Source of the DNA: a bacterium
GTDB taxonomy: Bacteria; JAMOTN01
Length of the DNA: 44,340 nucleotides
Reading direction: 5' to 3'
Assembly: GCA_027062325.1 (NCBI GenBank)
Contig: JAMOTN010000028.1
Coordinates: 1-44,340, forward strand
Position 1 is the first letter of the stretch; each line of letters starts with the position of its first letter. The translations under genes and the position numbers were made by a program. Below are positions 5,378 to 20,120 of this stretch, one piece after another. The notes beneath the pieces were generated by a model. It ran no database searches. It had not been told where the DNA came from and saw only the letters and a list, made by a program, of their open reading frames with translations.

Positions 5378-7630
5378 ATGAGGTATAGGGGAGTTGTAGT
5401 CTATATATTATTTTTTTTCATTAGAGTTGTACTAAGTGGGGTAGATTATTCCGAAGATCCACCATCTAGGGGAAATTCTGATATTGTTATCACAGGTTAT
5501 AAGACTATACGTATTAACTGGAATAGTATTAGCGGAGATAGAACTTCTTATTACAATCTGAATTTTACTTCGGATGGTTTAAAAATAGAGAATGAGACTA
5601 TGTTAGAAGTTGAGGGTTGGGCTTCTGATGTGTTAATAAGGGGAAATTTTGTTGACATTCCTGGAATGGATAGAAGAGTTGAAATAAGTTTTATAGGTCG
5701 CGATTTCAAAATTTCTATGGGAGATGTTTCTGCTTCTCTAGTTCCTGAAAACGAATTTGGTTTGAAAAACTTGGCTATTAGGGGAATAAGTGGAAATTTT
5801 AAAAAGGGGAAATGGGAAATAGGGACCTTTGTATCTCAGTCCAGGGCAAGGTGGGCGCATGAAAGTTTCAGGCCCAATTCTACAACTAACAGATTTAGAT
5901 TGAGGAATGCCCCGGTCGTTGCAGATAGTGTTAAGGTGCGTTTGAATGGACAGTTATTGAATTACGGTAGGGATTACTGGGTTGATGAGGAGTTGGGAGA
6001 GGTGATACTTCGCGCTACTTTGATGCCTTTACCTGAAAATTCTGTTATTGAGATAGAGTATCAGTACTTGAATGATTTGTTCGGAGTGTTTCCAACACAG
6101 TTACAGGGGTTTAGTTTAAGAGCTGTTGTTAAGGGTTTCAAAACAAATTTAGCTCTCTTTAGGACTGTTACTAAAAGTGAAGACAGTGGTGTATCTATAC
6201 TTGGAGCAAACTCCATGGAGAGTGGAAGTTTGAAAAACTTTATGTTTGGGGTTGCTAAGAGTTTTAAAAATTTCACTTTTAATCTATCTACCTCTTTAGG
6301 GGGAGTGAATGAGTTAAAGCCAGCTTTTGATTTGAAAGAGGCTTTAAAATTGGGGAATTGGGAATTTAGCCATAGATTCAACTTAGTTGCAACAGGTTGG
6401 AAGGGATTTGAGGAGAGAGAACCGGTTGTATTTAATGAGTTGGGATTGAAGTATGCAATTGATAATGTAAGTTTAAATTTGTTTGGGAAAGCTGGATATG
6501 GATATAATGCAACGACTCAGGATAAGCGAATTTTGGATGAGGGAAGTTTTTCTTTAAGTTTGGGAAATTTAAAAAGAGATGGGTTTTTAATTGGAGTTAG
6601 TGGAAAATACAATTACTCCTTAAGTCAGAGAAAGGAATTAAAATTTTACTCTGAAAAACTTTTGGGTAATCGGTTTACAATAAAACCATATTTTGAGGTT
6701 GTGAGTGTTGCTACAGAAGAGGGAGCTAGCCGGTCGCGTTTATTTGGTGATTACATCGCGGATAAAAAAGGTGGGCTAGAATTTAGGTACTCTAGTGGAA
6801 TTTACGGATTCACAGCTCTATTTGAAAAAAGTATGATCGATGATAGGAGGCTTGCGAGGGTAAATGGCAATTATAGAAAGAAAGGTTTGTCTGTTAATGT
6901 GAATATGGCTTTGGTGAATGAAGATAAGGAGACAAAATTGGGAGAGTTTAGAACTCAATATAGAAAAGATAGGCATTATTTTTCGGCTTTAGCTAGATAT
7001 TCGGAGGTTGATGATACTGCAAACACAGCTGATAGTCTTGCAAGGGTTAGCTATCGTTATCGTTACAATTTTTTTACCTTTGATTTACTTGGAAGTTATG
7101 AGAGGACTAAAAGTGTTCTAGATAAACGCTTGTTTCGTGGAAAAAGTGGTTTGACTTTCAATTTGAAAAAGATTGGTAGGTTTGGTGTTAGCTACAACTT
7201 GGAGAAAGATTTTCAAGCTGGTTGGGATAAGAAAATTTATGAGGCGTTTTACAAGAAGGAGATTTTCGGATTCAATTTAAAATTAAAAGGGCGTTTTGGG
7301 GATGAAGATGAGAAGGAAGGGGAAATCGAGAGAGAGGTTGGATGGGTGAAATTGGGAGTATTTGGTGGGAGGAGGCAAGAAGATGGTAAAAATGATATGG
7401 TTTATTGGTATGGATTGAGAGGAGTTGGATTTGGAAAGATGCATCTTTATGGGGAGATTAAAGTTACAAATTCAGATGATGAGTTATATGATGGACTGTT
7501 GACTGCAAATTTGAAGGTTTCTTTAAAAAGTACGCAGAGATTTTCTGTTGATTTAAAACTCGATTATCAGAAAAAAAAGGATGATTACAGTGCCAGCGGA
7601 TTTGGATTGGAAGTTACTCACAATTTTTAG
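5378..7630 (+). CDS. Predicted outer-membrane beta-barrel protein
   Basis: 750 residues. A hydrophobic N-terminus with two Arg (VVVYILFFFIRVVLSG) suits a signal peptide. Residues ~185-225 hold the pattern DSVKVRLNGQLL-YGRDYWVDEELGEVIL...IEIEYQY, a small beta domain often found before barrels in outer-membrane proteins of diderms. The rest is made of long alternating hydrophobic/polar strands with short turns (for example FNLSTSLGG, ARVSYRYRYNFFTFDLLGSYE) and ends in VTHNF, the C-terminal aromatic of Bam-dependent barrels. No plug or TonB box is seen. Cargo or partner is unknown. No clear ribosome binding site precedes ATG 5378. The next gene, a lipoprotein, starts 25 bases after its stop, which suggests a functional pair. 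Confidence 0.7.
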   Translation: MRYRGVVVYILFFFIRVVLSGVDYSEDPPSRGNSDIVITGYKTIRINWNSISGDRTSYYNLNFTSDGLKIENETMLEVEGWASDVLIRGNFVDIPGMDRRVEISFIGRDFKISMGDVSASLVPENEFGLKNLAIRGISGNFKKGKWEIGTFVSQSRARWAHESFRPNSTTNRFRLRNAPVVADSVKVRLNGQLLNYGRDYWVDEELGEVILRATLMPLPENSVIEIEYQYLNDLFGVFPTQLQGFSLRAVVKGFKTNLALFRTVTKSEDSGVSILGANSMESGSLKNFMFGVAKSFKNFTFNLSTSLGGVNELKPAFDLKEALKLGNWEFSHRFNLVATGWKGFEEREPVVFNELGLKYAIDNVSLNLFGKAGYGYNATTQDKRILDEGSFSLSLGNLKRDGFLIGVSGKYNYSLSQRKELKFYSEKLLGNRFTIKPYFEVVSVATEEGASRSRLFGDYIADKKGGLEFRYSSGIYGFTALFEKSMIDDRRLARVNGNYRKKGLSVNVNMALVNEDKETKLGEFRTQYRKDRHYFSALARYSEVDDTANTADSLARVSYRYRYNFFTFDLLGSYERTKSVLDKRLFRGKSGLTFNLKKIGRFGVSYNLEKDFQAGWDKKIYEAFYKKEIFGFNLKLKGRFGDEDEKEGEIEREVGWVKLGVFGGRRQEDGKNDMVYWYGLRGVGFGKMHLYGEIKVTNSDDELYDGLLTANLKVSLKSTQRFSVDLKLDYQKKKDDYSASGFGLEVTHNF

Positions 7631-9942: not shown

Positions 9943-10079
9943 TAGAATGTATTTGCGTTTAAAACTTGTTGTATTCAAAAGGTTTTGTTAAATTAAAAAT
10001 ACCTTGTGTTTGTATTATATTTTTTGGTATGTAGTATGTGTATTGTATCACGAGCGTAAAAAGTAGGGAGGGATGTTCT

Positions 10080-11597
10080 TTGAAGGACTTAAGAATTAGG
10101 TTCCTCATCATTCTATTTGTATTAGGTATTACTTGGTGGTTGGCTTTTCCTTTAAAAGAAAAGGTAAAATTAGGGCTTGATTTGAGAGGAGGACTTGACA
10201 TTACCTATGAAATTGATGTAGATCAGTTGAAAAAGCTGACTTCTGATCAGCGGGCACAGTCTATTATGGATAAATTAGATGAGTTGGGAAGTGTTGATTA
10301 CAAGGTAACAGTTGATAAAGATGGTTCAATTCACGTTAAGATTAATGATTTACCTAAGAATAAACTTGTTGAGATTGAAGCTTTGATGCAAGGATTTGTG
10401 AATTACCAATTTATAAAAGTTGCCGATGGCGAATACACTCTTCGCTTTAAGAAAGAAGCGTTAACAAAACTTATAAAGGATGCGCAAATGAAGGCAGTTA
10501 CGGTTATAAGAAACAGAGTTGATGAGCTTGGCGTTAAGGAGGTTAATATTACAACTTATGGGATTGACAGGATAAGAGTACAAATTCCTGGTATAAAAGA
10601 TGCTCAAGAGGCGATTGATATTATTGGACGTACGGCAATTTTACAGTTTAGGTTGGTTGAAGGACCTGCTGCTTCAATGGATGAGAAAGTGTCTGATGAT
10701 GTAGAGATACTTCCTGAGATAACAGACAAAGGCGTTCGCTATTGGAAAGTTCAAAAACGTGTGTTATTGACGGGAGACATGTTGAAAAATGCTTATGTTG
10801 GGTTTGATAACATGGGACGTATTGCTGTTGATATAGAGTTTAACTCAGTTGGAGCTCAGAAATTTGCTAAAATTACGAATGAAAATGTCGGAAGATTATT
10901 GGCGATTGTATTGGATCAGAAAGTTCAATCAGCTCCTCAGATAAGGGAGCCAATTTATGGAGGACGTGCTCAGATTACAGGAAACTTTACAGACAAAGAA
11001 GCTAAAAAGTTGGCAATTGTGTTGAGAGCAGGTGCACTACCTGCTCCTCTTAAAAAATTGGGAGCTACCATAGTGGGACCAACTCTTGGAACAGATTCTA
11101 TCAGAAGAGGAGTTAAAGCTATTACTTACGGATTCTTATTAGTGTTGCTTTATATGATGGTGGTTTACGGTTTTGCTGGAGTTATTGCCTCGTCTGCTTT
11201 GGTTGCAAACTTCATAATAATGATGGGAATAATGGCTTATTTTAATGCAACACTTACCCTTCCTGGAATTGCAGGTTTAATACTCACAGTTGGTATGGCT
11301 GTTGATGCAAACGTTATCATCTTTGAGAGGATAAGAGAAGAGTTAGCAATGGGTAAGACGGTTGGAGCGGCTATCGATTCAGGTTTTTCAAAGGCGTTTT
11401 GGACAATATTTGATGCGAATATGACAACTTTGATAACCGCTTTGGTATTGTACTTTTATGGTACTGGTCCAATAAGAGGTTTTGCGGTTACTTTGAGTGC
11501 GGGTATTGTGGCTAGCATGTTTACAGCCATATTCATGGTCAAGTTCATATTTGACTTCTTCCACAAGATAAGACAGTACAAAACATTGAGTATATAG
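10080..11597 (+). CDS. secD: Protein translocase subunit SecD
   Basis: Inner-membrane RND-like subunit that uses proton motive force to help SecYEG export proteins. About 505 residues with one N-terminal membrane segment, a large periplasmic P1 domain and five membrane segments in the last ~170 residues. Family motifs: KLGLDLRGGLDI just after the first segment, RAGALPAP before the second, and GMAVDANVIIFERIREE in the fourth. TTG 10080 is chosen because AGGGAGGG at 10065-10072 is 7 bases upstream; the in-frame GTG at 10038 would add 14 residues and has no such site. The 137-base gap upstream (9943-10079) is AT-rich; TATTAT at 10013 could be a -10, but no good -35 goes with it. Confidence 0.95.
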   Translation: MKDLRIRFLIILFVLGITWWLAFPLKEKVKLGLDLRGGLDITYEIDVDQLKKLTSDQRAQSIMDKLDELGSVDYKVTVDKDGSIHVKINDLPKNKLVEIEALMQGFVNYQFIKVADGEYTLRFKKEALTKLIKDAQMKAVTVIRNRVDELGVKEVNITTYGIDRIRVQIPGIKDAQEAIDIIGRTAILQFRLVEGPAASMDEKVSDDVEILPEITDKGVRYWKVQKRVLLTGDMLKNAYVGFDNMGRIAVDIEFNSVGAQKFAKITNENVGRLLAIVLDQKVQSAPQIREPIYGGRAQITGNFTDKEAKKLAIVLRAGALPAPLKKLGATIVGPTLGTDSIRRGVKAITYGFLLVLLYMMVVYGFAGVIASSALVANFIIMMGIMAYFNATLTLPGIAGLILTVGMAVDANVIIFERIREELAMGKTVGAAIDSGFSKAFWTIFDANMTTLITALVLYFYGTGPIRGFAVTLSAGIVASMFTAIFMVKFIFDFFHKIRQYKTLSI

Positions 11598-11652
11598 AAA
11601 GGTGTGGGTAGGAGAAAAGTAGTTTAAAAAAGTACGTGAGGAGGGAAGATGT

Positions 11653-12582
11653 ATGAACAGGAAACCAATAAATTTTATGGGCGCTGCAAAATACCTATTT
11701 CCAATATCCATAATCCTTATGATCATAAGCTTGGGGATTCTTACTTTTAAGGGATTGAATTACGGGATAGATTTTACAGGCGGAACGTTGCTGCATCTCA
11801 AATTTGAAAAGGAAGTATCTATATCTGATTTGAGAAAGGCTGTAGCGGATACTGGTTTAAAGGTAAGAATACAGCCTGTAGCTAAGGGAGCTAGTTTTTC
11901 ACAAATTGGTATGGGTATGAAGTTCAAGAGTGATGAGTGGATTTTAAGCACTGTTTATCTAAAGGATTCTGGAGAAGGTTGGACAAAAGCAAAGTTTATA
12001 AAGGTTTTGGAAGATAGATTAGGAGTAAAAGTAAAAGAGATACTCAAGAGTTCTGATGTGGGACCGACTATTGGAAAAGAGTTGAAATGGAAGGCAATTA
12101 AAGCGGCAGTTCTTGCTTTGATTTTCATGATGATATACATTACTTACCGCTTCGAGTTTTGGTTCGGGTTTGGTGCAGTATTTGCTTTGGTTCACGATGT
12201 TCTATTAACACTGGCGGTATTTTCGTTAGCAGGGTTTGAAGTTGAGTCTTCTTTTGTTGCAGCAATTTTGACATTGATAGGTTACTCTTTGAACGACAGC
12301 ATAGTTATTTCGGATAGGATTAGAGAAAATATGAAGATTCGCTACAGCAAGGATTTTGTAGAGTTGATAAACGTTAGTTTGACGCAGACATTGAGAAGAA
12401 CTTTGAATACCTCTCTTACAACTCTTATACCTTTGACACTGTTGGTGTTATATGGAGGGCCAGCTTTGTTTTCTTTCTCATTTGCGCTTTGGATAGGTGT
12501 GCTTGTTGGAACGTATTCTTCCATATTTGTTGTATCTCCAATAGTTTTACATGCTCAAAAAGGTGCATGGCGAGTTAAATAA
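11653..12582 (+). CDS. secF: Protein translocase subunit SecF
   Basis: Partner of SecD in the SecDF complex. 309 residues, a typical length. The N-terminal membrane segment is followed by LNYGIDFTGGTLLHLKF, the SecF signature. The membrane core contains SSFVAAILTLIGYSLNDSIVISDRIREN and the TLRRTLNTSLTTLIPL segment. The ATG is preceded by GAGGAGGG. It follows secD by 55 bases in the same orientation, as is usual, and a hairpin with a T-run lies 76 bases after its stop. Confidence 0.96.
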   Translation: MNRKPINFMGAAKYLFPISIILMIISLGILTFKGLNYGIDFTGGTLLHLKFEKEVSISDLRKAVADTGLKVRIQPVAKGASFSQIGMGMKFKSDEWILSTVYLKDSGEGWTKAKFIKVLEDRLGVKVKEILKSSDVGPTIGKELKWKAIKAAVLALIFMMIYITYRFEFWFGFGAVFALVHDVLLTLAVFSLAGFEVESSFVAAILTLIGYSLNDSIVISDRIRENMKIRYSKDFVELINVSLTQTLRRTLNTSLTTLIPLTLLVLYGGPALFSFSFALWIGVLVGTYSSIFVVSPIVLHAQKGAWRVK

Positions 12583-12625
12583 TTTGCTTAGTTGAAGGTT
12601 GAACAGAATGTGTGGTTGTGTTTGT

Positions 12626-12656
12626 TTGAAACTTTGATCAATAATGGGATTATAAT
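12626..12656 (+). promoter_or_regulatory. Possible promoter for the 12724 gene
   Basis: TTGAAA (12626-12631) and TATAAT (12651-12656) are 19 bases apart. The -10 is a perfect consensus. The predicted start point (~12661-12664) falls on the first bases of the hairpin at 12661-12682. Only 36 bases lie between the hairpin's T-run and the ATG at 12724, and no promoter is seen there. So either this promoter or read-through from secF must serve the gene. Confidence 0.4.
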
Positions 12657-12658
12657 TT

Positions 12659-12687
12659 AAGGTGGCAGATAGTTCTGCCACCTTTTT
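12659..12687 (+). terminator. Rho-independent terminator-type hairpin after secF / leader of the 12724 gene
   Basis: Arms GGTGGCAGA (12661-12669) and TCTGCCACC (12674-12682) pair perfectly over 9 bp with a TAGT loop, followed by TTTTT; the flanking AA/TT add 2 bp. This is a textbook intrinsic terminator. It probably ends the secDF transcript, but its position directly after a TATAAT box means it could also act as an attenuator or a 5' stem-loop. Confidence 0.9.
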
Positions 12688-12723
12688 CATTGTTGTAGCT
12701 GTTGTTGTAAAGGAGGGATAAAT

Positions 12724-14085
12724 ATGAGAAGATTAGTGTCTCTTATTTTAATTGTGATTTTTGCTTCGATGGTTGTATCGGAGCCAGTATTGGCAGGAAC
12801 ATGGTCTAAAAAAGGTAGAAAGGCTGGTGAAAGAATAGGTGGAGCTATAGGGGAAGCTATAGGTAGTGCTGTAGATATGGTTGTGGTTGTTGGAGATAGA
12901 ATTGTATATGCGGGGAAGCAGGTGTTGAACTCTGTAAAATCTGGTGTTGATCAAATTTTTGGGAAAGTTTCAGGAGTTGCAGCTGGAATTGCTGGTGGAG
13001 TAAGTAGTGGACTTAGTGCTACTGTTAATGCTGGGAAAAATGTGTTAGATTCTGCTAAAAGTATGCTATCAGACGGCATCTCTAAATTTAACTTTGCTGT
13101 TTCCCAAACTGGACAGGCAGCATTTTCTGCTCTTGGAAAGGTTGGAAGTATTGTGAGGAGTGCAGCTAAAGCTCTAATTGAAGTTCCAGCGGAGATGGGA
13201 AAAGCACTTGTCTCAATAGTTATAGATACTGCTACTGCAGTTATGAAAGTTGTAGGAAAAGGCATTGCTTTTTCTGTTGGTGTTGGTAGTTTGGTTGTTA
13301 GTGCTTTGAAGGATTTATTTAAAGTGTTGGATAAAGGGGTTGAGAAGGCAGCTAATTTCAATCCCAAAGCTATAATAGACTGGGCAAAGGGAGCACTTGC
13401 AGCTGTTGTTTCTGTTTTAGCAGGAGTTGGAGATCTTGCTTTGAAGGGGGCAAGAGAGTTTGTAAGATTGGCAGAACTTATTACTATAAAAGCAGTAAAG
13501 GTTTTCTTAAAAGGGGTTGCCAAGGTTTTGAAGATTACTAGAGATGGAATTGATGTGGCTCTTAAAAAAGTGAATGGTGCAATTTCAAATTTGGATAAAG
13601 CTGAAAAAGAGTTGGAAAGCGGAAATGCTAGTAATGCTAAGAAGTATGTATCTACAGCAACTTTGAATGTTGAAAGTGCAGTTAATAATTTGAACAATAC
13701 TACAATTAAAGCATCTGTTAGTTTAAATAAAACCAAATATGAGATTTTGAAAACGGATTCTTCTAAGGAGTATGAAGACTATGCTCCTTCAAGAAGTGAG
13801 GTTGTCAGGGTTGCTGAGGAAACTCAGAAGGTGCAGGAGAATCTTATAGAAGCAGATGATAGTATAACTGCTTCAATTGATAGAGCTAAGCCTTCCCTTG
13901 AAAAATTGGAAACTGTGAGTGAAAATATAGGCGTGTATGAGAACTATAGAGCTTATTATAGATTGTATGTTGAGACTTTGAAAAAATACAAGGAGGGGAA
14001 GGTAAGTAAAGATGAATTGGATAAAGTTAGGAAGAAGTATTTTGAGTCTTGGAGTAGGTATAAGAAGCTCATTGGGGTTAAGTAA
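12724..14085 (+). CDS. Secreted Gly/Ala/Val/Lys-rich helical protein, unknown function
   Basis: 453 residues with no family I recognise. The Sec signal peptide has RR, a hydrophobic core and likely cleavage after PVLA. Residues ~25-280 are a run of similar amphipathic helices rich in Gly, Ala, Val, Ser and Lys (AGERIGGAIGEAIGSAV, KVSGVAAGIAGGVSSGLSA, KALIEVPAEMGKALVSIV) with almost no aromatic residues. That composition is seen in surface-binding or phasin/LEA-like proteins and in some membrane-active proteins. Residues ~285-453 are a charged, coiled-coil-like region with Asn/Ser-rich turns. A strong AAGGAGGG precedes the ATG. Bracketed by terminator-like hairpins, it may be its own transcript. 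The strong ribosome binding site suggests high expression (inference). Confidence 0.75.
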   Translation: MRRLVSLILIVIFASMVVSEPVLAGTWSKKGRKAGERIGGAIGEAIGSAVDMVVVVGDRIVYAGKQVLNSVKSGVDQIFGKVSGVAAGIAGGVSSGLSATVNAGKNVLDSAKSMLSDGISKFNFAVSQTGQAAFSALGKVGSIVRSAAKALIEVPAEMGKALVSIVIDTATAVMKVVGKGIAFSVGVGSLVVSALKDLFKVLDKGVEKAANFNPKAIIDWAKGALAAVVSVLAGVGDLALKGAREFVRLAELITIKAVKVFLKGVAKVLKITRDGIDVALKKVNGAISNLDKAEKELESGNASNAKKYVSTATLNVESAVNNLNNTTIKASVSLNKTKYEILKTDSSKEYEDYAPSRSEVVRVAEETQKVQENLIEADDSITASIDRAKPSLEKLETVSENIGVYENYRAYYRLYVETLKKYKEGKVSKDELDKVRKKYFESWSRYKKLIGVK

Positions 14086-14098
14086 CAATGGAATTAGT

Positions 14099-15031
14099 TT
14101 GAATTTTAGAAAAAATAAAATATGGGCAGCACTGCTTATGTTGAGTGCTGCCCTTTTCATTTCTGGTTGTATTTATATTCCTGTTTTTTCAAGGTGGCAC
14201 TTTATAACAGAATTGAGTGTAGAGTATCCAATAGATATAGCTAGTAAGAATGGTTTCTTTTATGTATTGAGTAGGACTGGGAAGGTAGTGGTTATAGATA
14301 AGACTGGTAGCTTGACTCGTGAGATAAAACTTAGAAAAAGTATTGGTTATGGTGCTACAGGTATTGCTATAAATAGTGATGCCACGAGACTCTATATTGC
14401 TAATCCTTCAAAGGGGAAGGTTTATGTGGTCAGTGCTCAGAGCGGTAGAAAGTTGAAGACTATAGCTTATGCTCCATTTAAAGGTGAAAAATTGGAGGAT
14501 GCAAAATTAGAAGAGATAGTAGATGTTGCTTTGGGTAGAGGCGGAAGGCTTTTTATGCTTGATTATAAAGGAGAATTCATAGTAATGAAAAAGCGTCTAA
14601 AACTTTCGGAGGCTAAATTTGATCTTTCTTCTGTTGCGACAAAGGTTAATTACCCCTGGGGAATAGCAGTGTGGGATAGGGAAGTTTGGGTTACTGATAC
14701 TTATAGCAGAGCTGTTAAAGTTTATTCTTATAGTGAGGGAACTAAAACTTTAAAAGTGGTAACAGCTTTGATTAATAAAGGAATAATGTCCTTACGGCAT
14801 CCATTTAAAGTGAGTTTGACTGAGAATTACGCTTTTGTTACAGATACTGGTTGGATGCCAGTTGTAGTTTATAACCGTAAAACTAAGAAGTTTATAGGAG
14901 GAATAGGGTCTTTTGGAGAAAAGCGAGGAAAAATTATGTTACCTGCTGGTATTGCTTCAACGGAAGATGGGAAAGTTATTGCGGTAGGAGATATTTATAG
15001 AAACAAAGTTTTAATTTTCAGAAGGAAGTAA
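14099..15031 (+). CDS. Beta-propeller (NHL-like) lipoprotein
   Basis: About 310 residues. The signal is a lipoprotein type: MNFRKNKIWAALLMLSAALF then ISGC, with the Cys lipidated. The mature part shows repeated blade-like units: GFFYVLSRTGKVVVID, GIAINSDATRLYIANPSKGKVYVVS, PWGIAVWDREVWVTDTYSRAVKVYS, YAFVTDTGWMPVVVYN and GIASTEDGKVIAVGDIYRNKVLIF. These suit a five- or six-bladed NHL-like propeller. Ligand unknown. TTG 14099 is chosen because it gives a basic n-region before the hydrophobic segment; it has no clear Shine-Dalgarno, and the frame is open further upstream into the previous gene. A perfect hairpin with a T-run lies inside its first 20 codons. The UDG gene follows after 12 bases. 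Confidence 0.7.
   Translation: MNFRKNKIWAALLMLSAALFISGCIYIPVFSRWHFITELSVEYPIDIASKNGFFYVLSRTGKVVVIDKTGSLTREIKLRKSIGYGATGIAINSDATRLYIANPSKGKVYVVSAQSGRKLKTIAYAPFKGEKLEDAKLEEIVDVALGRGGRLFMLDYKGEFIVMKKRLKLSEAKFDLSSVATKVNYPWGIAVWDREVWVTDTYSRAVKVYSYSEGTKTLKVVTALINKGIMSLRHPFKVSLTENYAFVTDTGWMPVVVYNRKTKKFIGGIGSFGEKRGKIMLPAGIASTEDGKVIAVGDIYRNKVLIFRRK
14124..14157 (+). terminator. Terminator-type hairpin lying inside the next gene's signal-peptide codons
   Basis: GGGCAGCAC (14124-14132) and GTGCTGCCC (14145-14153) pair perfectly over 9 bp with a 12-base loop, followed by TTTT at 14154-14157. It lies 38 bases after the stop of the preceding gene, where a terminator is expected. It is also within the open frame of the downstream lipoprotein, encoding part of its hydrophobic signal segment. 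Confidence 0.75.
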
Positions 15032-15043
15032 GGGGGAGTTGAG

Positions 15044-15676
15044 GTGTTATTTTCTGCTCAAGATTGGGATGAGTTGGAAACTTCCCTTCGAAGTTGTAAA
15101 AAATGTCCTCTTGCAGAAAACAGGACCAATGTTGTTGTTGGAGAGGGAAACAGATCTGCGGAGCTAATGTTTGTTGGAGAGGCTCCTGGGGCTGACGAGG
15201 ATATTCAGGGAAGACCATTTGTAGGTAAGGCTGGGCAGCTTCTGGATAAGATTTTTGAAGTGGTAGGATTGGATAGAAAAGAGGTTTACATTACAAATAC
15301 AGTAAAATGCCGACCTCCGGGTAATCGTGTTCCTAACAATCAGGAGATGACAGCTTGTGCTCCGTTTTTGGAGATGCAGATAGAGTTAGTTAATCCAGCA
15401 GCTTTGATTGCTTTGGGATCAACGGCTCTCACTTGGTTTTTGGGCAAAGGTTATGCTATAACTAAAGCGCGTGGAAAGTGGTATAGGTGGCGTTATAGGT
15501 TTGTTTTTGCTGTTTTTCACCCCAGTTATTTACTTAGAAATCCATCGCGTAAAAAAGGATCTCCAAAGTGGTACATGTGGCAAGATATGCTGCATCTTAT
15601 GGAAGTTTACGGTAGAATTAAAAATGGGGAAAGGATAGATTCAATTCTAAAAGATTATCCCGAAAGGTTGGGGTAA
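15044..15676 (+). CDS. Uracil-DNA glycosylase, family 4 (4Fe-4S)
   Basis: Removes uracil from DNA at the start of base excision repair. 210 residues, typical of family 4 enzymes, which are common in thermophiles but not limited to them. The four Fe-S cysteines are present: Cys18 and Cys21 (CKKC), Cys89 (VKCRPPGNR) and Cys105 (TACAPF). The catalytic-loop motif is GEAPGADED near residue 45, and FHPSYLLRNPS near the C-terminus carries the conserved His of the leucine/intercalation loop. GTG start with GGGGGAG 5 bases upstream. Next to recJ in the same operon-like run, so this is partly a repair neighbourhood, although an unrelated membrane protein lies between them. Confidence 0.92.
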   Translation: MLFSAQDWDELETSLRSCKKCPLAENRTNVVVGEGNRSAELMFVGEAPGADEDIQGRPFVGKAGQLLDKIFEVVGLDRKEVYITNTVKCRPPGNRVPNNQEMTACAPFLEMQIELVNPAALIALGSTALTWFLGKGYAITKARGKWYRWRYRFVFAVFHPSYLLRNPSRKKGSPKWYMWQDMLHLMEVYGRIKNGERIDSILKDYPERLG

Positions 15677-15716
15677 ATATTACTTCCAGATAAATATTTG
15701 CTTGGAGGTAGAAGTC

Positions 15717-17711
15717 ATGGGAGAGAGGATTTTAATAGTAATTTTTGTGCTTGTTGCTTTTATTATAGGTTTTGTTACGAATGAGAAGCGAATTTCTGTT
15801 TATAAAGAAAAGGTGAAAGTGTTACAACAACAGACTGATGAATTGCAAAAGAAAGTAGAGAACTTGGCAAAGTTTCCTATAACTAAGGGTAATGCTAAGG
15901 CAACAAGTGAGGAAGTATTATGTGCTACTTGCGAGAAGATGCTTTCGGAGTGTAGGTTGTCTTTGAAGGATAAAGAAAAGAAATTGAGCGAAATTTACGA
16001 AAAAATTCAGCTATTTAAAAAAGGTGTTGTTACGCTTTCGGATTTAGAGAGCGCGTTTATAGGTTTAAACAGGCAGTTTCGATCTCGTTATTCTCTTGAA
16101 AATGTTTACAGTTATTTCTTTAGCAATGTTCAACTTTCCAAGAGGCTTGATAGAGTGTTAAAAATGCCTAATTTGGTGGAAATTTTTGGGAATATTAAGT
16201 GGCATTTGCTAAGTGATAATTTAAAATCTAAGATTGCTCCTTATCTTCTGTATAGGTTGATAAGGGGAATAGCGGAAAAGGATATAGTTGTTGATGACTT
16301 AAATTTTATGAATTTTATGTCCCAGGGAGTATTGGCAGATTATTTGTCCAGTAAGAGTTGGAATGAGATGGATCCGGGAGTTTTGCGGATAATTTTTGAA
16401 CTTTTATGGGTGCAAGTGTTTGAGTATGTGTCTCCCAAAGTACTTACCGCTGTAAAGGATGATGTTATAGGAGCATTTTGTGCAGAGGTTGAAAGGCGCA
16501 TAAATTATTTAGAAAATGGTATGGAAGTTAGTCGTCCTGCTGATGTGTTTGTTTTACCACCTCTGTTGAAAAGAAGTATGCTTGTTACAGATCTTAACTA
16601 TAAGATGGCGGTTGTTGATAGAGGGTATTGGATAAAGGTTGCTTTAGTTGATTTGAATGCGCTTCCCTTTGTGGCTTATATGCTGAAAGAAAATAACGTT
16701 GTTTTGAATGTAGGGGAAATAAAGGGGTTAGCAATGAAGGAGCCTGTGCCGTATCAAGTTGAGGGTACCATAGAAGTTGTATTGAGATTTTGGGAATTAC
16801 TAACTACTGAAAATTTGTCTTATTTAACTACTTCAGATAAGGAAACAATAGAAAAGTTAGCTTCTGTTCCATATTCTTTGGGAGATTTGATAAGGAATTT
16901 GGCAATTATTTATGATGTGGATTTAGAAAAAGTATTCGAAACCAGAAAATCTGATGTATTGGCTGATTTTGTGAAGGAGACTAATATAGAACGTGATTTG
17001 TATTACGGAAGGAAGAATCCTAAGGAGTTAGAAAAAATTGCTAGTACGATTAAGGGACCTAGAAAGTACAGAGCAATGTTGTTTTTGGGAAAGGTTACTG
17101 ATAAGTTGGTCAGATTAACAGATTGGGATGTAATGTTGCTGAAGAAAATATATGGTTCAAAGGATTTTACCAAATTGACTTTAAATGCTTTGCAAAGTGG
17201 TTTGATTGCCACACCTTTCTTGAGAGAAGTGATTTTAGCAACGGATTTTACAGCGTTTGAACAGGTAGAACCTGTGTGGTATAACTCTTATCCTGTGCTA
17301 ATGAGAGAAAAAGGTTACAAATGGCAGAATTTGATTAAGGGTTATCAATTGGATTATACGGTGATTTCCGAGTTGGGGAATGTTGATGATCTAGCTAAAT
17401 TTGTGAAGATAGCAGCTAAAAATTCTAAATCTAAAAATGATCAAAATGTGCTACCACAAGAAGAAGGCTTGAAAGCTCTGAAAGAATTGATAGATATTTA
17501 TAAGAATGGTGGTTTTAAAGCGTTTATGGTTAGAGGATTTTATACCAAGTACACCAATGTGTTACCTCTCTTTATGAGAGTGGTGGCTCATTCTAAATTG
17601 TTCAGAGTTGAGGCAGAGGAGGTTTTGAATTTCGCGGATGAACTTATAAAGTCAGGGGACGGAGGAATACTAATGGTCATGTTCTCTCTGTTAAATTACT
17701 CTGAACTTTAG
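15717..17711 (+). CDS. Membrane-anchored coiled-coil protein of unknown function
   Basis: 664 residues, not recognised. One N-terminal membrane helix (ILIVIFVLVAFIIGFVTNEK) with a short N-terminal tail, then a coiled coil at ~30-60 (YKEKVKVLQQQTDELQKKVENL), a pair CATC plus a third Cys within ten residues at ~75-85, and a second coiled segment. The remaining ~550 residues are mixed and mostly helical, without repeats that I can align. The layout (anchor, coiled stalk, large domain) suggests an envelope scaffold; which side of the membrane the large domain occupies is unclear. ATG 15717 is chosen over the upstream in-frame TTG 15702 because GGAGG at 15704-15708 is 8 bases before it. It lies between UDG and recJ with short gaps. 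Confidence 0.75.
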   Translation: MGERILIVIFVLVAFIIGFVTNEKRISVYKEKVKVLQQQTDELQKKVENLAKFPITKGNAKATSEEVLCATCEKMLSECRLSLKDKEKKLSEIYEKIQLFKKGVVTLSDLESAFIGLNRQFRSRYSLENVYSYFFSNVQLSKRLDRVLKMPNLVEIFGNIKWHLLSDNLKSKIAPYLLYRLIRGIAEKDIVVDDLNFMNFMSQGVLADYLSSKSWNEMDPGVLRIIFELLWVQVFEYVSPKVLTAVKDDVIGAFCAEVERRINYLENGMEVSRPADVFVLPPLLKRSMLVTDLNYKMAVVDRGYWIKVALVDLNALPFVAYMLKENNVVLNVGEIKGLAMKEPVPYQVEGTIEVVLRFWELLTTENLSYLTTSDKETIEKLASVPYSLGDLIRNLAIIYDVDLEKVFETRKSDVLADFVKETNIERDLYYGRKNPKELEKIASTIKGPRKYRAMLFLGKVTDKLVRLTDWDVMLLKKIYGSKDFTKLTLNALQSGLIATPFLREVILATDFTAFEQVEPVWYNSYPVLMREKGYKWQNLIKGYQLDYTVISELGNVDDLAKFVKIAAKNSKSKNDQNVLPQEEGLKALKELIDIYKNGGFKAFMVRGFYTKYTNVLPLFMRVVAHSKLFRVEAEEVLNFADELIKSGDGGILMVMFSLLNYSEL

Positions 17712-17730
17712 ATTTTAGTGGGGTTGAGCC

Positions 17731-19578
17731 ATGAGGTGGTTGGTCAGAAAAGGCGATGTTTCCAAAGTTATAACTTTATCTTCAAAGTATGGGATAAATA
17801 AGCATTTGGTTCATACCCTCGTTGCAAGAGGAATAGAAAATCTTGAAAATTACTTTATTAATGGAAAAAAGGATTTGCCTTCTCCGTTTGAACTGAGAGG
17901 AATTGAAGAAGCGGTAGATATTTTTTTAAACACCAAAAGAAAAATTTTGGTTTGGGGAGATTATGATACTGATGGAGTTACTTCGGTTGCTCTATTAATC
18001 AGATTTATAAATAAGTATCTCTGCACGGATTGCGTGGAGTGGAAAATTCCCAATAGGTTTGAAGATGGGTATGGTATAAATTTTGACAGAATAAAAACAG
18101 AGTCTCCGGATGCAGATTTAATAGTATTTGTTGATTGTGGAAGTTCTGAAAAAGAGGTAATTCAAAAGTTACTGAAAATGGGAAAAAAAGTTGTGGTTTT
18201 GGATCATCACAAAACTGATTGGATACCTGATAATAATGAAAGATTTGCCATGGTTAATCCTAGTATAGATTGGCCTATCAATCTACCAGCGGTTGGTGTA
18301 GTTTATAAGTTGATAACGGCAATTATGGAAAAAATGGGCCGAAATTGGAGAAATAGCTATGTTTGGGAAGATTTAGTTGCGGTTGGGATAGTGTCGGATG
18401 TTATGCCTGTACTTTACGATAATAAAGTATTATTGGAAGAAGGAATGAAGGTGTTAAATAGTTCTCCAATAGTTGGTTTGAAAGTTTTGATGGAGATATT
18501 GGGAATGAATGTGGCAACTCCTAAAAGTCTCGGTTTTATTTTGATACCACGTTTGAATGCTCCGGGACGTGTGGGAGGAGCAGAGTGCGTGGTGGAGCTT
18601 TTATTAACAGATGATGAGAAGAAAGCGTGGGAATACGCAGCTTTAATTGATAAATTAAATAGAGATAGGCAAAGGATTGAACAGAGGGTTAATTCTGAAG
18701 TTAGAAAAATGTTGAAAAATTTTTATAACAGAGAAGAAAATGCTAATCGCCCAATAGTGTTATGTTCTGATAGTTGGCATGTTGGTGTGATAGGAATTGT
18801 AGCCTCAAAACTCAAGGAAGAGTATGGTGTTCCTGTAATTTTGATAACACGCCACGATGATAAGTACATAGGATCGGCTCGAGCTCCGGATGGTGTAAAT
18901 CTTCACAGCTTACTTTCGAATTTTGAAGAGTACTTTGAAGAGTGGGGAGGACACAAATTAGCTGTTGGTTTTACATTGAAAAGAAATAAAGTTGAGGAGT
19001 TTTTAAAGGCTTTGAGGGAGTATAAATTAGAGGTAAAATGTGAGGGGGTTGAATTTAAAGAAAATTTTGTGATGGAGCCTGTTGTGTATGTGGATAAAGT
19101 TTCACAAATTTCAGATTTTAGGGATGAAATAATGAGTTGTTTTGATAGAATGAAGCCCTTTGGCGCTTCAAATGCAGAGCCAATTTTTTTGTTAAGAGGA
19201 GTTAGAATTTTTGCTGCTGGAGATACGATAAGACTTGAGAAAAAGAATGCAATTCTCTATGTGGATGATATATGTATCTCGGAGGATGTACTTGTAGATA
19301 AAATTGGTAAGCAGGTTGATGCCTTGATAAAGGTGGAATTTGGTGTAAAGAATCGAAAGATTACACTTATCGATATTTCAGATCCAAATGAGAAATTTGA
19401 TGTGGATTGGGATAAGTATTTGGAGCCAAGGGTTCTTGTAGAAATTGATGAAAAACAAATTAAGGGAATTTTAGGTAAAATAATGGAGTATGGTGATTAT
19501 ACTTTTGCCAAAGAATTGTGGAATAAGTGGAAAAAAATGAGAAAAAAGAAAGTTATGGGTGTTTCTAAAATGAGTTGA
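17731..19578 (+). CDS. recJ: Single-stranded-DNA-specific exonuclease RecJ
   Basis: 5'-3' single-strand exonuclease of the DHH superfamily, used in RecF-pathway recombination, mismatch and base excision repair. 615 residues. Metal-binding motifs in order: GDYDTDGVTS (~70), FVDCGSS (~130), VVLDHHKTDW (~155), AVGIVSDVMP (~210), RLNAPGRVGGAE (~270). The DHHA1 half has VGVIGIVASKLKEEYGVPVILI and the GGHKLAVGFTL signature. A C-terminal OB-like domain follows. Two Arg/Asn positions differ slightly from the usual RINAAGR, but the acidic and His ligands are present. It overlaps nothing; apt begins 17 bases after its stop with its ribosome binding site in between. Confidence 0.95.
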   Translation: MRWLVRKGDVSKVITLSSKYGINKHLVHTLVARGIENLENYFINGKKDLPSPFELRGIEEAVDIFLNTKRKILVWGDYDTDGVTSVALLIRFINKYLCTDCVEWKIPNRFEDGYGINFDRIKTESPDADLIVFVDCGSSEKEVIQKLLKMGKKVVVLDHHKTDWIPDNNERFAMVNPSIDWPINLPAVGVVYKLITAIMEKMGRNWRNSYVWEDLVAVGIVSDVMPVLYDNKVLLEEGMKVLNSSPIVGLKVLMEILGMNVATPKSLGFILIPRLNAPGRVGGAECVVELLLTDDEKKAWEYAALIDKLNRDRQRIEQRVNSEVRKMLKNFYNREENANRPIVLCSDSWHVGVIGIVASKLKEEYGVPVILITRHDDKYIGSARAPDGVNLHSLLSNFEEYFEEWGGHKLAVGFTLKRNKVEEFLKALREYKLEVKCEGVEFKENFVMEPVVYVDKVSQISDFRDEIMSCFDRMKPFGASNAEPIFLLRGVRIFAAGDTIRLEKKNAILYVDDICISEDVLVDKIGKQVDALIKVEFGVKNRKITLIDISDPNEKFDVDWDKYLEPRVLVEIDEKQIKGILGKIMEYGDYTFAKELWNKWKKMRKKKVMGVSKMS

Positions 19579-19595
19579 CAGGGAGGAGAAGCAAG

Positions 19596-20120
19596 ATGAG
19601 ACTGGACTACAAAAAACTTATAAGGGATGTACCAAATTTTCCTAAACCTCCTATAATTTTTAAAGATGTGACAACAGTTTTGCAGGTTCCTGAGTATTTT
19701 AAAGCTTGCATAGATGATATGTTGGATGCAGTAAAAGATATGGATTTTGATTGTGTGGTTGGAATAGAATCGAGAGGATTTATATTTGCCTCTGCTATAG
19801 CTTATGCTAAAGGGGCTGCATTTGTTCCTATAAGAAAAAAGGGAAAGTTGCCTTACAGGGTGTTGCGTGAGGAATATGAACTTGAGTATGGTACTGATGA
19901 AATAGAGATTCATGAAGATGCTTTTAAATTTACAAAGAAAGTGTTGTTGGTGGATGATGTTTTGGCAACGGGGGGAACTGCGAAGGCAGCTTTGAGTTTG
20001 ATAAAGAGAGCGGGAGGAGAGGTTAAAGGAGCCTTATTTTTGGTAGAGCTTGAGTTTTTGAATGGACGATCAAAATTGGAAAATGAGTGTGAAGTGAGAA
20101 GTTTGGTTAAGTATCAGTAG
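19596..20120 (+). CDS. apt: Adenine phosphoribosyltransferase
   Basis: Purine salvage enzyme making AMP from adenine and PRPP. 174 residues, normal for Apt. Motifs: NFPKPPIIFKDVTTVL at the N-terminus, GIESRGFIFASAIAYA, RKKGKLPYRVLREEYELEYG, and the PRPP-binding loop VLLVDDVLATGGTAKAA. ATG 19596 is chosen because GGGAGGAG at 19581-19588 lies 7 bases upstream; the open frame extends to a TTG at 19575 overlapping the end of recJ. The recJ-apt order is a conserved pairing in many bacteria. Confidence 0.96.
   Translation: MRLDYKKLIRDVPNFPKPPIIFKDVTTVLQVPEYFKACIDDMLDAVKDMDFDCVVGIESRGFIFASAIAYAKGAAFVPIRKKGKLPYRVLREEYELEYGTDEIEIHEDAFKFTKKVLLVDDVLATGGTAKAALSLIKRAGGEVKGALFLVELEFLNGRSKLENECEVRSLVKYQ

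Follow-up and report, generated by a model that had tools for sequence, protein, structure and literature searches.

A putatively exported orphan protein with a phase-coherent amphipathic stretch of 300 residues, encoded downstream of secDF

What could a long, weakly aromatic helical protein do for the bacterium that encodes it between its secDF and recJ-apt genes? The question is raised by P0001, a 453-aa ORF (12724-14085, +, stop included) on contig JAMOTN010000028.1, positions 1 to 44,340 of which were analysed and are referred to here as the window. Below we describe the gene and its setting, the regularity that distinguishes its product, the search for relatives, and the readings that these observations allow.

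The gene, its signals and its genomic context

A signal peptide (by eye), a strong Shine-Dalgarno sequence and native codon usage indicate that the P0001 gene looks real and is not an artefact. Its codon score, 0.259, equals the highest value among the 15 window genes used for scaling (0.117-0.259). An antisense ORF of 261 aa lies inside the gene (12951-13736, -); it scores 0.063 against the 0.259 of P0001 and, since this is about the score of a wrong frame of the P0001 gene (0.064), it probably arises only from the composition of that gene.

The strong ribosome binding site described in the initial annotation is present as the Shine-Dalgarno sequence AAGGAGGG (12710-12717, +), which lies 6 nt upstream of the ATG and, read by eye, matches the 3' end of the 16S of the same genome. 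The N-terminus, MRR-LVSLILIVIFASMVV-SEPVLA followed by G, reads by eye as a classical signal peptide (residues 1-24; 12724-12795, +), with a probable cut between VLA and G, in agreement with the earlier proposal of a secreted product. Hairpins had been seen as bracketing the gene, and of these the upstream one stands: located between secF and the P0001 gene (12659-12684, +), it is terminator-like, with an 11-bp stem followed by a T-run, and its 43-nt fold has a dG of -19.5 (z -6.95). The downstream hairpin (14124-14153, +; a perfect 10-bp stem, then TTTTC), however, falls within the codons for the lipoprotein-like signal peptide of the next ORF, and may therefore attenuate the next gene as much as end the P0001 gene, so that terminator or attenuator and coding region may be combined in one sequence. 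As this stem sits within the beginning of the next ORF, the independence of P0001 on its downstream side is uncertain, and the notion of an independent, perhaps abundant product is weakly supported.

A scan of the window proteins identified secD and secF upstream (10038-12582, +) and, downstream, an ORF with an NHL-type repeat (14012-15031, +), followed by uracil-DNA glycosylase (UDG) and an orphan 669-aa protein (15044-17711, +). The NHL ORF is a probable lipoprotein, with an LFISGC lipobox recognized by eye, and its true start is probably the TTG at 14072 or 14099. The 669-aa orphan (15702-17711) carries a hydrophobic segment at its N-terminus and matches no Pfam family above cut-off. Together with P0001, these make four genes that separate secDF from recJ-apt (10038-20120). 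The relatives found for secF are only 37-45% identical and spread over many phyla. Among 80 secF relatives, secD is found upstream in 80/80, a same-strand recJ after secF in 20/80 and apt in 15/80, with 15 of the 80 loci extending less than 2.5 kb past secF. Only UDG, out of the four intervening genes, was matched in the 80 loci (tblastn, E <=1e-4), namely at two of them and both times upstream of secD. Elsewhere in the window, a 750-aa protein (5378-7630) weakly matches the T9SS translocon protein SprA (24.5 bits vs a cut-off of 200).

The genome itself comprises 1.65 Mb and is 84% complete. It encodes a reverse gyrase, scoring above the curated cut-off, as well as LpxC, Omp85 and SLH domains, the three SLH matches being located on contigs C3, C6 and C72. 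Its 16S gene has 61.7% G+C, against 35-42% in the window. From these marker genes and base compositions, we infer a thermophilic or hyperthermophilic diderm host with LPS.

One hydrophobic phase over 300 residues

The composition of P0001 is as initially described, rich in Gly, Ala, Val, Ser and Lys and low in aromatic residues: over residues 25-280, V/A/G/K/S account for 61% and aromatics for 4.7%. Its amphipathic-helical character is likewise confirmed. Across residues 27-327 (12802-13704, +) the hydrophobicity stays in a single phase, with 3.65 residues per turn and a hydrophobic face of about 210 degrees. The spectral power at this period is 43.1 for residues 27-327 and 38.9 for residues 25-285, whereas 2000 shuffles of the latter segment average 6.4 and never exceed 14.6. 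Over the same residues 25-285, the power is 23.5 at a period of 3.667 and 0.05 at 3.50; a heptad coiled-coil rod, with its period of about 3.5, was rejected on the latter value.

The phases of nine successive 33-mers range from -34 to -98 degrees (R 0.957), a concentration that random helix phases reach in 2/20000 sets even when the period is refitted. When random phase breaks were introduced every 25 or 40 residues, the observed power was reached in 0/500 trials each, and with breaks every 60 residues in at least 1 of 500. From these simulations, the stripe is likely to be interrupted no more than a few times, its prolines at Pro154 and Pro214 being possible sites.

A keeping of register over about 300 residues bears out one half of the original description, repeated helices in similar register, but a repeat unit was not found. 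Self-alignment, suggested at the time as a way to read the repeat length, gave no repeat above shuffles: ungapped, over residues 25-285, it was no better than chance (matched by 9.7% of 300 shuffles), and over residues 27-327 it was matched by 575/1000 angle-preserving shuffles. Sequence repeats in P0001, those of 11 or 33 residues included, were therefore rejected, as the self-alignment does not rise above shuffles even when these keep the helix face.

How exceptional the stripe is was assessed in two control sets of ORFs of at least 261 aa, which were defined mechanically rather than taken from annotated genes and which both include the window ORFs. Set 1 holds 540 ORFs from the window and other loci, with P0001 counted twice (538 others), and set 2 holds 279 ORFs from 532,540 bases of the P0001 genome, window included (278 others). 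A power above 20 is found in only four others across both sets, at periods of 3.50, 3.50, 3.54 and 3.80. The sole such ORF in set 1 (L004; 36.6 at 3.503) resembles a chemoreceptor by eye and has the period of a coiled coil. In set 2, P0001 ranks first in 261-residue windows with a power of 39.5, followed by ORFs with 28.3 at 3.503, 22.2 at 3.540 and 20.5 at 3.802. It holds the top position of the own-genome set only in windows of 200 and 261 residues; in 120-residue windows another ORF (L131) leads with 27.2 at 3.546, vs 21.3 for P0001. This ORF (L131:5364, +; 448 aa), with its period of 3.546 over 120 residues, is like a chemoreceptor signalling domain by eye. The tape-measure protein gpH of phage lambda has a power of 19.0 at 3.527, vs 39.7 at 3.65 for P0001. 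Measured against the control ORFs and gpH, it is unusual for long coherence to coincide with a period near 3.65.

The physical character of the stripe was described with Eisenberg, Fauchere-Pliska and Kyte-Doolittle values entered from recall. On the Fauchere-Pliska scale so entered, residues 27-327 have a mean hydrophobicity of 0.352 and a mean moment of 0.365 in 33-mers; the hydrophobic fraction is 0.49, the aromatic fraction 0.043, the charged fraction 0.21 and the net charge +15. Polar residues make up less than 30% in seven of the twelve 30-degree sectors (about 210 degrees), against four of twelve (120 degrees) in one coiled-coil control, the L004 ORF. With so wide a face, a helix half immersed in a surface is more plausible than a coil of two to four strands; a bundle is possible. 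Glycine makes up 11-13% of the stripe and is not positioned by helix face. Basic residues show no significant excess over acidic ones at the border of the face (p 0.30), so that a class-A apolipoprotein charge layout was not seen. A division of the hydrophobic face into an Ala side and an Ile/Leu/Phe side was also not significant (969/10000 permutations).

Search for relatives and the C-terminal domain

The impression that P0001 fits no known family has held up in Pfam, NCBIfam, PDB, genome and contig searches, none of which gave a convincing match. No convincing homolog was found in 385 other genomes, GTDB contigs, phages, plasmids, viral contigs, PDB or family libraries. The genomes formed two overlapping sets of 59 and 386 (own genome included), with up to four first-look candidates scored for each genome in the set of 386, and they contain no other member of the same phylum; the contig scans require an exact 8-residue match, so that distant homologs could be missed. 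The best foreign genome match (E 0.0026) was judged to be noise, the own-genome search returned only P0001 itself, NCBIfam gave no family, tblastn against phages gave no match at E <=0.01, and Pfam gave no perilipin or synuclein profile at E <=1. A phasin was considered and rejected (14.6 bits vs a cut-off of 24.9; a signal peptide by eye vs a cytosolic location). By the tests run, P0001 appears to be an orphan outside the known families.

A possible paralog is encoded on contig C23 of the same genome (L120:10104-11498, -). This Gly/Ala/Val/Ser-rich protein of 464 aa has a signal peptide by eye and a stripe of about 110 residues (36-145; power 20.8 at 3.591). When P0001 was aligned with 294 other ORFs of its genome (at least 250 aa), the L120 ORF gave the best Smith-Waterman score (99; next 95), which exceeds 399/400 plain and 400/400 block shuffles; the blastp E-value is 0.083. 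Angle-preserving shuffles of P0001, however, reach 99 in 16/400 cases, and sequences of other ORFs, when reversed, score up to 88 in the own genome and up to 97 in other genomes. With face-keeping and reversed controls near or at 99, the L120 ORF is a candidate paralog. The L120 ORF also matches a tape-measure PHROG (E 1.7e-6), which was taken as compositional; by tblastn it matched no phage genome, and in the 386 genomes (own counted) it has two foreign matches (E 7.6e-4 and 9.8e-4). By eye, its neighbours include one protein whose N-terminus is prepilin-like and another like a biotin carrier protein. P0001 may have a few companions of its kind in this genome, the L120 ORF being only partly similar.

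Residues 281-453 (13564-14082, +) form a predicted C-terminal helical domain that overlaps the end of the stripe. Folded alone from the single sequence, AF2 predicts four helices (pLDDT 77), with a helix break near 299-301. This part, annotated at first as a coiled coil, is thus predicted to be helical, but the period gives no clear coiled coil (power 6.1 at 3.636 over residues 286-453). The full-length single-sequence model has a pLDDT of 52 and breaks the preceding stretch into eight helices (pLDDT ~38-60); it neither supports nor excludes a bundle. Foldseek with the C-terminal model returned nothing at E <=0.001 (best E 1.3), and VIA gave Z values of at most 9.3 (ClyA 9.3, AhlC 9.1), in a range (Z below about 13) where matches of helical models may reflect only a common arrangement. 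In Pfam, YfdX (PF10938) is matched with 18.1 bits (E 0.0028) by the whole of P0001 and with 21.6 bits (E 2.3e-4) by residues 281-453, both below the gathering score of 26.6 bits. The YfdX structure 3dza reaches a Foldseek E-value of 3.1 only, with the single-sequence C-terminal model as query, and is absent from the PDB sequence searches at E <=10. We regard the YfdX resemblance of this part as a lead, not as membership.

A candidate membrane coat and its alternatives

The reading we favour, with confidence just short of even, is that P0001 lies on an envelope membrane as a coat of surface-bound amphipathic helices. Given the signal peptide and the diderm genome, the protein would leave the cytoplasm via Sec, with release into the periplasm or at the outer envelope. 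From residue 27 to about 298-327 it would form one very long, near-straight amphipathic alpha-helix, possibly kinked at Pro154 and Pro214 and up to ~45 nm in length if fully extended. Its V/A/I/L face (~210 degrees) would dip into the membrane surface and its K/S/D/E face would point toward the water, while the net charge of +15 would favour anionic lipid or LPS. The four-helix C-terminal domain could cap the long helix or let molecules associate, and many weak contacts lengthwise could add up to a stable coat, by which the membrane would be stiffened or protected when hot. Of this scheme, the gene, the helical period, its continuous phase, the composition and the type of genome were observed, and export, an unbroken helix, a membrane as the surface and the coating role are inferred. 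Points against a coat are the eight helices into which AF2 breaks the stretch and the break near residue 300 in the C-terminal model, the compatibility of the observed power with breaks every 60 residues in at least 1 of 500 trials, the glycine content (11-13%) with no placement by face, and basic residues that are not significantly commoner than acidic ones at the border of the face (p 0.30).

Alpha-synuclein, with its helix rich in V, A, G and K, ApoA-I, which is secreted, and perilipin 4 are the nearest working analogues. According to Table 1 of one source, hydrophobic moment and hydrophobic, aromatic and charged fractions are 0.30/0.47/0.02/0.24 for alpha-synuclein, 0.35/0.37/0.01/0.23 for Plin3 and 0.39/0.40/0.065/0.35 for ApoA-I (PMC5889406), and the stripe of P0001 (0.365/0.49/0.043/0.21) falls among these lipid-surface helices. 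As far as that table defines a long, weakly aromatic amphipathic helix with a moment of ~0.25-0.4, P0001 has one (301 residues, 0.365, 4.3% aromatic). Like perilipins 3 and 4, it combines such a helix, of similar moment, with a predicted helical-bundle domain, a four-helix bundle being predicted for perilipins too (PMC5889406). Oil droplets acquire a stable layer of perilipin 4 (PMC8064757), the binding of which has been attributed to many weak contacts spread over its length (PMC5889406). Unlike perilipins, P0001 is bacterial and putatively exported, has no 11- or 33-mer repeats that we could find, a period of 3.65 vs 3.667, a larger hydrophobic fraction and no Pfam match. Alpha-synuclein is close in its three fractions, but P0001 is about three times longer and putatively exported, has an extra helical domain and showed no 11-mer repeats. 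ApoA-I shares a long amphipathic stretch kinked by prolines, yet with seven prolines vs two, and its class-A charge layout was not found in P0001. As profile match, 11-mer repeats and class-A charge layout were all absent in our searches, P0001 is not filed with these families.

Several other readings compete with a coat. Rather unlikely, in our estimate, is a bundle of helices in the periplasm that might act as a chaperone or against aggregation and whose C-terminal domain is a remote relative of YfdX. YfdX is likewise helical and exported, and part of the C-terminal half of P0001 matches it weakly; YfdX is not known to have a 300-residue stripe. The sub-threshold match of residues 281-453 and the broken AF2 helices fit such a bundle, as does the chaperone activity described for periplasmic YfdX (PMC6394985), but the match falls short of the gathering score, 3dza appears only at a Foldseek E-value of 3.1 and not in the PDB sequence searches at E <=10, and a bundle does not require one phase across 300 residues. 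Less probable still, a rod of long parallel helices with a near-hendecad right-handed or straight pitch could span the periplasm or form an envelope layer. The period of 3.65, near 11/3, and the single phase would suit it, and deep-branching bacteria have coiled-coil connectors with SLH domains (PMC9388160), SLH matches being present in this genome too. P0001 resembles the outer membrane-cell wall connectors of the SlpA/Omp-alpha type, long envelope helices in deep-branching diderms, but it has no SLH domain (Pfam, E <=1), its period is not 3.5, its Gly-rich helix has a face of 210 degrees vs 120 in the coiled-coil control, and the other three top proteins of its own genome (261-residue windows) have periods of 3.50, 3.54 and 3.80.

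Coating a surface, binding membranes and forming pores had all been proposed at first; coating, with a membrane as the surface, remains the best option, and pores have no specific support. A ClyA/AhlB-like pore-forming or membrane-attacking protein is very unlikely: P0001 is cationic and amphipathic and its C-terminal model aligns with ClyA and AhlC, but at Z values that a common helical arrangement may explain and with a best Foldseek E-value of 1.3, and outside the signal peptide the 19-residue hydrophobic windows reach at most 1.71 (Kyte-Doolittle) and contain charges. A molecular ruler akin to the tape measures of phages, to which we give hardly any credence, is retained as a resemblance only. 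Weak matches to PHROG 788 (tail protein; E 1e-3) and Pfam PF09718 (tape measure; E 0.04-0.5) point to it, against which stand the signal peptide seen by eye, the shorter period and lower power of lambda gpH, the lack of a phage tblastn match at E <=0.01, and the window itself: phage-type domains occur in only one of the 28 proteins scanned, an integrase-family recombinase, with no tail gene among them, and the rest are housekeeping proteins (secDF, UDG, recJ, phosphoribosyltransferase, others) or are without assignment.

If P0001 is indeed a membrane coat, it might further be an exported bacterial counterpart, independently arisen, of the giant lipid-coating helices of eukaryotes, such as perilipin 4 and synuclein, joining a ~45-nm helix to a bundle domain in a hyperthermophilic diderm. 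This is a tentative proposal that we consider doubtful; in the parts of the literature surveyed, we recognized no description of an exported bacterial giant amphipathic helix. The stripe also suggests a search rule that does without homology: an exported protein with one hydrophobic phase over hundreds of residues and a period near 3.65. Thermophiles constantly have to prevent their bilayer from leaking in the heat, and the proposal, if true, would mean that giant, weakly aromatic helices coat membranes in the bacterial envelope and in thermophiles as well.
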